Shown piece by piece: positions 3,703-10,492 of a stretch of 32,889 nucleotides of DNA; position 1 is the stretch's first letter, and the number at the start of each line of letters is the position of its first letter. A program made the translations under genes and the position numbers. The DNA is taken from the NCBI GenBank assembly GCA_022340825.1, contig JAJDNE010000043.1, positions 1-32,889 on the forward strand, written 5' to 3'. The stretch comes from Acidiferrobacterales bacterium. GTDB taxonomy: Bacteria > Pseudomonadota > Gammaproteobacteria > Acidiferrobacterales > JAJDNE01. Below the pieces are notes generated by a model. The model saw only the letters and a list, made by a program, of their open reading frames with translations, was not told the DNA's origin and did no database searches.

Positions 3703-3739
3703 CCGACCTTTACCCTATTAAGTATCGGCGTCCAGCAAG

Positions 3740-3763
3740 TGCCCGTGATCAGGGCATTTTTTT
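3740..3763 (+). terminator. Rho-independent terminator or attenuator between cysS and ilvB
   Basis: TGCCC-GTGATCA-GGGCA stem-loop followed directly by TTTTTTT. Confidence 0.65.
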
Positions 3764-3787
3764 ATTCTATTCAAGCAGAGGTAGGCA

Positions 3788-7844: not shown

Positions 7845-8651
7845 ATGTCAAATTCAAAATCCAATCCGGACTCTGCGGCAACGGTAACCGAGATTCATTC
7901 TCGCGGTCGCCGTCCCGGTATCTACATTCTGCCGAGTCTCTTTACCACGGCCGGCCTGTTTGCCGGTTTTTATGCCACTATTCAAGCGGTTGGCGGAAAT
8001 TTTGAGAAAGCGGCGATCGCCATCTTCATCGCGATGGTCATGGATGGACTCGATGGCCGGGTCGCGCGTCTCACCCACACCGAAAGTGATTTTGGCGCCC
8101 AGTACGACAGCCTGGTTGACATGGTTGCCTTTGGCCTGGCCCCGGCGCTGGTCATGTATGTCTGGGCGCTTTCCGGCCTGGGCAACCTGGGCTGGGTGGT
8201 CGCTTTTATTTACAGCGCCGGCGCAGGTCTGCGGCTGGCGCGGTTCAATATCCAGGTTGACGTTGTCGACAAACGCTATTTTATCGGCCTGCCAAGCCCC
8301 ACCGCGGCGGCGGTAGTTGCCGGTTTTATCTGGCTGATGGATGCCGCAGGCCTGCCAGGCAAGGAAATCAGTATTTTCGGCCTGTTATTCACCCTGGCCG
8401 CCGGTATTCTGATGGTGAGTAATATTCGCTATCGCAGCTTCAAGGATCTTGATCTGAAAGGGCGAGTGCCGTTCGTGACCATTCTCGTCGTCCCGCTCAT
8501 TTTCGTCGCCGTCTTTCTCTATCCGCCGCAGGTGCTGTTTGGTACGGCCGCCGTGTATACCCTTTCCGGACCGGTACAGGCACTTATTCGGATGGCACGT
8601 AAACGTCACAAGGATAGTGGTGTGACCGGAAGCACCCCTGACAAAAAATAG
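7845..8651 (+). CDS. pssA: CDP-diacylglycerol--serine O-phosphatidyltransferase
   Basis: CDP-alcohol phosphotransferase motif MDGLDGRVARLTHTESDFGAQYDSLVDMVAFGLAPA. Confidence 0.95.
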   Translation: MSNSKSNPDSAATVTEIHSRGRRPGIYILPSLFTTAGLFAGFYATIQAVGGNFEKAAIAIFIAMVMDGLDGRVARLTHTESDFGAQYDSLVDMVAFGLAPALVMYVWALSGLGNLGWVVAFIYSAGAGLRLARFNIQVDVVDKRYFIGLPSPTAAAVVAGFIWLMDAAGLPGKEISIFGLLFTLAAGILMVSNIRYRSFKDLDLKGRVPFVTILVVPLIFVAVFLYPPQVLFGTAAVYTLSGPVQALIRMARKRHKDSGVTGSTPDKK

Positions 8652-8661
8652 TGGCTGCATC

Positions 8662-8692
8662 CCTTGGAATTCATGCCCAAGGCATATATATT
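8662..8692 (+). promoter_or_regulatory. Candidate promoter/operator for the leuA leader transcript
   Basis: TTGGAA (8664-8669), 17-nt spacer, TATATT (8687-8692), overlapped by the inverted repeat CCTTGG-N9-CCAAGG (8662-8682). Confidence 0.45.
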
Positions 8693-8718
8693 GATTTCAT
8701 AAGCGGATGAAACGAAAT

Positions 8719-8832
8719 ATGTGTCAACTCATCAACAATGCAGGATTTTGCACCACCACTACCTTTAGTGGCGGTTGTCCTGCGTTGTCCGCGAATGCCC
8801 TCCAGCTGCCCCTGCTACTGCTGCGCCGCTAG
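8719..8832 (+). CDS. Putative leuA leader peptide: MCQLINNAGFCTTTTFSGGCPALSANALQLPLLLLRR
   Basis: ATG at 8719, TAG at 8830-8832, 37 codons; six Leu in the last ten residues; overlaps strong hairpins; lies 112 nt before leuA. Absent from the supplied ORF track because it is short. Confidence 0.75.
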   Translation: MCQLINNAGFCTTTTFSGGCPALSANALQLPLLLLRR

Positions 8833-8868
8833 GCGCCCACAACTATTTCACAAGTCCCGGTAAGGGAC
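8740..8868 (+). promoter_or_regulatory. Structured attenuation-type leader of leuA
   Basis: GCAGGA (8740-8745)/TCCTGC (8778-8783) enclosing ACCACCACTA (8752-8761)/TAGTGGCGGT (8766-8775, one mismatch); GCGCC-GCTA-GGCGC (8823-8836) around the leader stop codon; GTCCC-GGTAA-GGGAC (8854-8868). No U-run follows any hairpin. Confidence 0.6.
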
Positions 8869-8944
8869 ACCCAGATAGAGAATTCAGGATCAGTCAGCCA
8901 GACCGAGAGCTGAGGTATAATTCGGTCGAAGAGTAGAGGACACC

Positions 8945-10492
8945 ATGAGCGAAAAATTAATTATTTTTGATACGACCTTGCGCGACGGCGAGCAGAGCCC
9001 GGGCGCGTCCATGACCCGTGACGAAAAGGTACGCATCGCCAAGGTGCTGGAGAAGATGCGCGTCGACGTCATCGAAGCAGGTTTTCCAATCGCCAGCGCC
9101 GGAGATTTCGAATCGGTGAAAGCGGTAGCCGAAGCGGTCAAGGACTCCACGGTTTGCGGGCTGGCGCGTGCAACCCAGGGTGATATTGAGCGAGCTGCCG
9201 AGGCCATCAAGCCTGCCAACAGTGGGCGCATTCACACCTTCATTGCCACGTCTCCGATCCATATGAAGGAAAAGCTTCGCATGGAGCCGGATCAGGTACT
9301 GGAACAGGCGGTGTGGGCAGTGAAACTTGCACGTCAGTTTACTGATGACGTCGAGTTTTCGCCTGAAGATGCCGGTCGCTCGGAACCGGATTTTCTCGTC
9401 CGGGTGCTGGAGGCGGTCATTGACGCCGGAGCGCGTACGGTAAATATCCCTGATACGGTCGGCTACAACATTCCGACCCAGTTTGGCAGTTTGATCGCCG
9501 ACTTGCGTGAACGAGTCCCGAATGCTGACAAGGCGATATTTTCGGTGCATTGCCATAACGATCTTGGTCTTGCCGTAGCCAATTCGTTATCTGCGGTGAT
9601 GAATGGCGCGCGCCAGGTGGAATGTACGATAAACGGCTTGGGTGAACGCGCCGGTAATGCCTCGCTTGAAGAAATCGTGATGGCGGTGCGTACCCGTCAG
9701 GACGTCTTTCCCTGTGATACCACTCTCGATACCACGCAGATTGTGACTGCCTCACGCCTGGTCTCGAATATCACCGGGTTTGCCGTGCAGCCGAACAAGG
9801 CCATCGTCGGCGCCAATGCGTTTGCCCATGAGTCGGGCATTCATCAGGACGGCGTGCTCAAGAAGCGCGAGACCTACGAAATCATGCGCGCGGAAGATGT
9901 CGGCTGGACCACCAATCGCATGGTTCTTGGCAAACACTCCGGCCGGAATGCGTTTCGCACCCGTCTTAAGGAATTGGGCATCGAATTCAAGTCTGAAGAA
10001 GAACTCAATTCGGCATTCGCCCGATTTAAAGATCTGGCCGACAAAAAACACGAGATCTTCGATGAAGACCTTCAGGCGCTGGTAACCGAAGAAGGTACCG
10101 AACAGGAAAACGAGCATTTCCAGCTGGTTTCCCTCAAGGTATGTTCGCAAACTGGCGAGGTGCCGGAGGCACAGCTCGTCGTAGCCGTGAACGGCAAGGA
10201 ACAGCAGGGTGTGGCAACGGGCGGTGGTCCGGTCGACGCCACGTTCAAGGCTATCGAATCCATCGTGAAAAGCGGATCGGGATTGCAGCTTTACTCGGTA
10301 AGCAATATCACCAGTGGTACCGATTCACAGGGCGAGGTGACAGTGCGTCTGGAGAAGGCGGGACATATCGTCAACGGTCAGGGTGCCGACACCGACATCG
10401 TGGTTGCCTCAGCCAAGGCGTATATCAACGGACTGAATAAACTGATTCAGCCGACGGATCGGGAACATCCGCAGGCTGATCAGCCGATATAA
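8945..10492 (+). CDS. leuA: 2-isopropylmalate synthase
   Basis: [52 protein letters not shown]-terminal regulatory domain. Confidence 0.97.

Follow-up and report, generated by a model that had tools for sequence, protein, structure and literature searches.

The leucine-rich open reading frame that precedes leuA in this genome of an Acidiferrobacterales bacterium has counterparts before leuA in many gammaproteobacterial families, and comparison of their sequences makes it very likely that the element is a leucine sensor. We consider it probable that the frame (8707/8719-8832, forward strand) is the gene of a leucine-sensing leader peptide, transcribed together with leuA from its own promoter, and that stalling on its leucine run would raise leuA expression, with ample charged tRNA-Leu holding leuA down. 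As judged by comparison across genomes, the reading frame, the leucine run and two small hairpins (hairpins 1 and 2) are conserved, as are, in relatives of the window, a pseudoknot and a predicted leaderless start; the leucine response and its direction are what we infer. Textbook leucine attenuation in the Gammaproteobacteria rests on Escherichia coli leuL; in many other lineages of the class the leucine leader is built differently, usually with a putative leaderless start, with the sensing codons set against the stop in a hairpin, with a tiny covarying pseudoknot and with no terminator. We found no description of this element in the open-access literature searched (an earlier description may exist), and Rfam has no family for the leuA leader described here.

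Reading frame, promoter and surroundings of leuA

The window is the whole 32,889-nucleotide stretch analysed (contig JAJDNE010000043.1; the leader features and leuA lie on the forward strand), and it belongs to a draft assembly of 2.19 Mb. Its genes, named from their translations, follow the order ilvB-ilvN-ilvC-psd-pssA-leader-leuA, the leader lying between pssA (stop at 8651) and leuA and having a promoter-like site of its own. The leader peptide frame (8707-8832), identified from the open reading frame lists and conserved in relatives, starts at ATG 8707 (41 codons) or at the in-frame ATG 8719 (37 codons, with the product MCQLINNAGFCTTTTFSGGCPALSANALQLPLLLLRR) and stops at TAG 8830-8832. 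The sequence-only reading had described a 37-codon frame ending 112 nt before leuA with six leucines among its last ten residues, and this description is correct in each particular: the stop and the leuA start at 8945 leave a gap of 112 nt, and every codon of the run matches (8800 CTC, 8806 CTG, 8812 CTG, 8815 CTA, 8818 CTG and 8821 CTG). These putative regulatory codons (8800-8823) also stand out in relatives, through enrichment of leucine and variation among synonymous codons, and among the 500 open reading frames of 15-80 codons in the window the leader alone has at least six leucines in its last ten residues. The gene presumed to be regulated, leuA (2-isopropylmalate synthase, 8945-10492), was recognized as a motif-bearing open reading frame with LeuA homologues in 135 of 185 class genomes; a Shine-Dalgarno-like AGAGG (8935-8939) precedes its start codon (8945-8947), the two together spanning 8935-8947.

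A pattern scan placed a candidate sigma-70-type promoter for the leader at 8664-8692 (TTGGAA at 8664-8669, a 17 nt spacer and TATATT at 8687-8692), and relatives carry a promoter of the same type at that place. Among 89 distinct leaders with strong promoters, 58 have an in-frame ATG 6-9 nt past the -10 box, other positions giving 3.6 per 4-nt bin. Because transcripts typically begin about 7 nt past the -10 box, the mRNAs of most relatives probably begin at the leader ATG or within a few bases of it, and translation of the leader peptide in most relatives is probably leaderless. The two ATGs of the window lie 14 and 26 nt past the -10 box (6 nt in its nearest relative, G001), with ATG 8707 sitting 8 nt downstream of the expected transcription start, so that the window is near-leaderless at best and not strictly leaderless.

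Two further sites in the window were recorded. A TATAAT lies at 8916-8921, between leader and leuA, with no good -35 element in the window, and -10-like motifs occupy the corresponding position in many relatives (GGTATGCTG, GGTAAAATGCC, GATACAATAGCC); these motifs suggest a second promoter that would bypass the leader. At 3737-3766, between the end of cysS (3625) and the GTG start of ilvB (3788), there is a terminator-like hairpin with a T-run (AAGTGCCCGTGATCAGGGCATTT TTTTATTC), approximately 20 nt before ilvB, which may be either the cysS terminator or a piece of an ilv attenuator.

Distribution of the leader and selection on its leucine run

A BLASTN search of 60 relatives with window positions 8600-9060 as query matched the 3' end of the leader (8798-8844) in several order-level relatives, and about 25 of the 60 encode a peptide ending in LLLRR, LRLLRASA or similar before leuA. 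Within the order of the window, three loci of one family (f4: L028, L029 and L030) lack the element before leuA, and other families have it. We built two covariance models, R1 from 22 relatives and R2 from 71. R1 matched in 32 of 369 class genomes (E ≤ 0.01) and R2 in 97 of 369 (E ≤ 0.1, the weak matches being partly checked); the window scores 38.1 bits with R1 and 33.7 bits with R2, a match that is not independent because the window is a member of both training sets. Every one of the 118 elements that were aligned and inspected is located upstream of leuA, and 117 of them, drawn from many gammaproteobacterial families, contain an in-frame leucine-rich open reading frame whose peptide ends in LLP, LLRR or similar (the 118 include a few re-fetches of one genome; 114 are distinct). 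A few extra matches in class genomes were not at leuA. Two R1 matches (L046 and L047) are not adjacent to the gene.

A phylum-wide sample of 299 genomes gave only two matches at E ≤ 0.01, namely the window and a single member of the class. A pattern search of GTDB species genomes returned at least 120 stretches, at least 35 of them upstream of leuA, and the records of these leuA-linked stretches are named as, or consistent with, Gammaproteobacteria (Chromatiaceae, Sedimenticola, Thiotrichaceae, Ectothiorhodospiraceae, Muproteobacteria and others); the stretches not before leuA (at least 85) are spread over many phyla and were judged to be chance. A closer search of 40 additional leuA genes lacking an R2 match in the genome scan gave good R2 matches in four, and in many others a peptide ending in LLLP, LRLP or similar is kept without the pseudoknot, indicating that the leader peptide is older or more robust than the pseudoknot.

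The leucine run bears the marks of a coding sequence. Over the 114 distinct peptides, leucine makes up 27-73% of residues at codons 2-13 from the stop, 11-19% at codons 14-16 and 2-13% beyond about codon 16-17. All six leucine codon types are present outside the hairpin arm, where the rare CTA stands at 7.8% compared with 1.3% in leuA (a sixfold enrichment). In 18 close pairs every gap is a whole number of codons and no frameshift occurs, the ratio of nonsynonymous to synonymous changes per site falls from 0.60 in the earlier codons to 0.32 in the last 13, and of 103 leucine residues 95 are kept, a codon change having occurred at 13 of these. This pattern of substitution and retention indicates that the run is selected as leucine and that the amino-terminal part is nearly free. 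Conservation of the frame and its leucine run upstream of leuA in relatives, and an ORF-preserving substitution pattern, had been named in the sequence-only reading as what would support it, and the comparative data contain both.

In 47 of the 114 leaders the peptide ends exactly in Leu-Leu-Pro before the stop. A proline in front of the stop delays termination and contributes to TnaC arrest; by analogy, ribosome arrest at the leader stop is possible.

RNA structure of the leader

In the window the first half of the reading frame contains a stable predicted hairpin at 8735-8788, just before the leucine run, which folds at -28.6 kcal/mol compared with -13.6 kcal/mol in shuffles (z -5.3); across 113 leaders there is a small excess of structure just before the leucine run (mean z about -0.5) and nearly none further upstream. 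The Cys/Thr/Gly-rich first half of the peptide had been noted earlier as a puzzle for a leucine sensor; it probably reflects this predicted RNA hairpin and not a feature of the peptide, whose amino-terminal part is unconserved. Hairpin 1 (GCGCC-GCUA-GGCGC, 8823-8836), supported by folding and by covariation in relatives, holds the arginine codons and the stop codon. All six of its pairs change on both sides across the 71 relatives, in an alignment that was fitted to hairpin 1 and is thus biased in its favor, and in 74 of 114 leaders it carries the last leucine codons and overlaps the stop or holds it in the loop. Hairpin 2 (GUCCC-GGUAA-GGGAC, 8854-8868), likewise supported by folding and by stem covariation, stands at the place of the relatives' CCUGGCGAGG, the outer pairs of which vary with compensation.

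Most relatives possess a near-invariant core (CCUGGCGAGG...ACGC) and a compact pseudoknot, in which the hairpin 2 loop GCG pairs with a CGC 2-12 nt downstream. In the pseudoknot columns 99% of cells pair, and since the pseudoknot is absent from the model, the alignment was not fitted to it. Family f160 includes 19 sequences with ACG/CGU, six with GCG/CGC and two with the wobble intermediate GCG/CGU, and ACG/CGU recurs in two other families (L039 and L052), so that at least three independent compensations can be counted. The pseudoknot motif of the relatives was not found in the window, where the loop is GGUAA and ACGC is absent; its nearest relative G001 is similar, and both keep hairpins 1 and 2. 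The pseudoknot appears to have been lost or replaced in the family of the window. A pairing of GGU (8859-8861) with ACC (8869-8871) was considered as a substitute pseudoknot and dropped, because it would leave no linker.

Nearer to leuA, hairpin 3 (GACCGA/UCGGUC, 8901-8927), read from the sequence and weak for the window itself, lies just 5' of the ribosome-binding site; hairpins just before the leuA Shine-Dalgarno are common in relatives (region mean z -1.37) and may belong to the switch. The 176-nt leader of the window, taken as a whole, folds no better than shuffles (z -0.58).

A stock terminator scan missed the obvious terminator of the E. coli leu leader, and we therefore used a custom script with that terminator as positive control. 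The script, which recovers the E. coli terminator, found no intrinsic terminator at 8707-8944. Only 11 of 113 leaders have a terminator-like site, the position of which varies, so that no terminator is conserved. The Rfam model of the enterobacterial leader (RF00512, Leu_leader) gave no match in the window either at E ≤ 5 or in the gathering scan (the E. coli leuL control scored 145.8 bits), and no Rfam family, T-box included, reached its gathering score in the window; the matches at E ≤ 5 (mir-142, V_AS9, snoR26 and DnaX) lie far below gathering scores and were judged to be chance. R2, for its part, matches neither E. coli leuL nor any of eight actinobacterial leuA regions.

Candidate mechanisms and comparison with known systems

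The reading we favor runs as follows. With charged tRNA-Leu plentiful, ribosomes would pass the leucine codons, stop inside hairpin 1 and leave, after which the leader RNA would refold and leuA expression would be held down; with leucine short, ribosomes would stall on the leucine run, occupying the leucine codons and hairpin 1, and leuA expression would rise. The last step would act not through intrinsic termination but through the accessibility of the ribosome-binding site of leuA, a mechanism that has been proposed for the actinobacterial LEU element. We offer this translational step tentatively, at somewhat less than even confidence. It is suggested by the complementarity of the leucine run to the leuA Shine-Dalgarno region: GCAG, the complement of CUGC in the run, is present ahead of leuA in 57 of 114 leaders compared with 27 in shuffles (and in 15% of other genes), a leucine run pairs more strongly with its own Shine-Dalgarno region than with those of GC-matched partners (z -4.7), and fewer pairs between the two are expected in chimeras (5.2 versus 6.6, p 0.0013). 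The signal comes from a subset of leaders, own pairing beating that of partners in only 57-61% of them, and the control pairing of the run with early leuA coding sequence has a similar z (-4.8). In the window the pairing is at background (3.4 versus 3.2 expected pairs), and CTC is not enriched among the leucine codons, so that codon choice gives no support to pairing with the Shine-Dalgarno.

Three other mechanisms, and chance, were weighed against this reading. Short open reading frames are frequent, as the 500 in the window attest, but a functionless chance frame is refuted by the conservation of the element (117 of 118) with frame-keeping substitutions, and we regard it as exceedingly improbable. 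It is also quite improbable, slightly more so than the RNA regulator considered below, that the leader is a classical enterobacterial attenuator of the E. coli leuL kind, built on an intrinsic terminator and an antiterminator. A leucine-run leader peptide does precede leuA, but the window is without a terminator, the few terminator-like sites elsewhere are scattered, and RF00512 detects E. coli leuL and not the window just as the new model misses E. coli leuL; the missing terminator mostly refutes this mechanism. Of the attenuation proposed in the sequence-only reading, the leucine-sensing leader peptide is thus supported, by its conservation, by the leucine share near the stop and by the retention of leucines without frameshifts in close pairs, and the classic terminator/antiterminator form is not.

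Alternatively, the conserved RNA itself might be a regulator that binds a small molecule or protein, the leucine run being a by-product of a CUG-rich hairpin arm. The near-invariant core and compact pseudoknot of most relatives would fit such a regulator, but leucine enrichment reaches about eight codons upstream of the hairpin arm in all six codon types, pseudoknot-free leader frames are common, and the core is missing from the window itself; we rate this possibility as improbable. The strongest competitor, although still unlikely in our estimate, is Rho-dependent attenuation, in which Rho would bind C-rich, G-poor RNA behind hairpin 1 and end transcription before leuA unless blocked, as in TnaC, by a ribosome stalled near the stop. 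There is no intrinsic terminator in the window and none is conserved, the RNA between hairpin 1 and hairpin 2 has 38% C and 12% G, the first 10 nt past the pseudoknot have 31-34% C and 8-10% G, and TnaC, like the Leu-Leu-Pro leaders, has a proline before its stop. Against this, the C-rich stretches are short and broken by hairpin 2, composition is balanced from 30 nt past the pseudoknot onward, and richness in C and A is frequent in unstructured linkers generally.

TnaC senses free tryptophan through nascent-chain arrest, an arrest that for the leader described here is only conjectural, and E. coli tnaC, a Rho-based leader peptide attenuator, is a possible model for a ribosome that blocks Rho at a site beside the stop codon. 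The tna system is named as a model in PMC1262725. A leaderless attenuator peptide is trpL of Sinorhizobium meliloti (PMC7298713), the mRNA of which begins at the ATG; trpL, however, is a tryptophan sensor, acts by transcription attenuation and belongs to the Alphaproteobacteria. Enterobacterial leuL (RF00512) shares with the present leader a short open reading frame with consecutive leucine codons directly before leuA; in E. coli leuL, however, the leucine codons lie mid-peptide, and there are a Shine-Dalgarno and a clear terminator, whereas here the leucine codons touch a stop held in a hairpin, most relatives are probably leaderless and there is no terminator. The leuA attenuator of Shewanella is terminator-based (PMC2659441).

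The closest parallel is the actinobacterial LEU element before leuA, with a leucine peptide, a pseudoknot, no terminator and a proposed pairing between the leucine run and the leuA Shine-Dalgarno (Seliverstov et al. 2005, PMC1262725). Both have leucine codons near the stop, no terminator and a position before leuA, and both have a pseudoknot (here in relatives), but the actinobacterial peptides are shorter (for example, MRFGLLLLSCRGEGL) and the sequence and pairing layout differ, and the likeness is likely to be convergent. Some actinobacterial leucine leaders (in the leuA upstream regions L269-L277) start approximately 6-10 nt past a -10-like box, with about 6 nt in L274 and L272, for example, which parallels the putative leaderless starts described here. 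We are evenly divided on the broadest proposition, that the leaders described here form an uncatalogued, widespread control RNA of gammaproteobacterial leuA (a leaderless leucine peptide, a hairpin at the stop codon and a minimal pseudoknot of the H type, without an intrinsic terminator and acting via translation or Rho) and an independent counterpart of the actinobacterial LEU element. The mode of action of that element was left open in 2005 (PMC1262725), and the gammaproteobacterial leaders open a second lineage to the question of how leuA can be governed by a leader peptide when no terminator is present.
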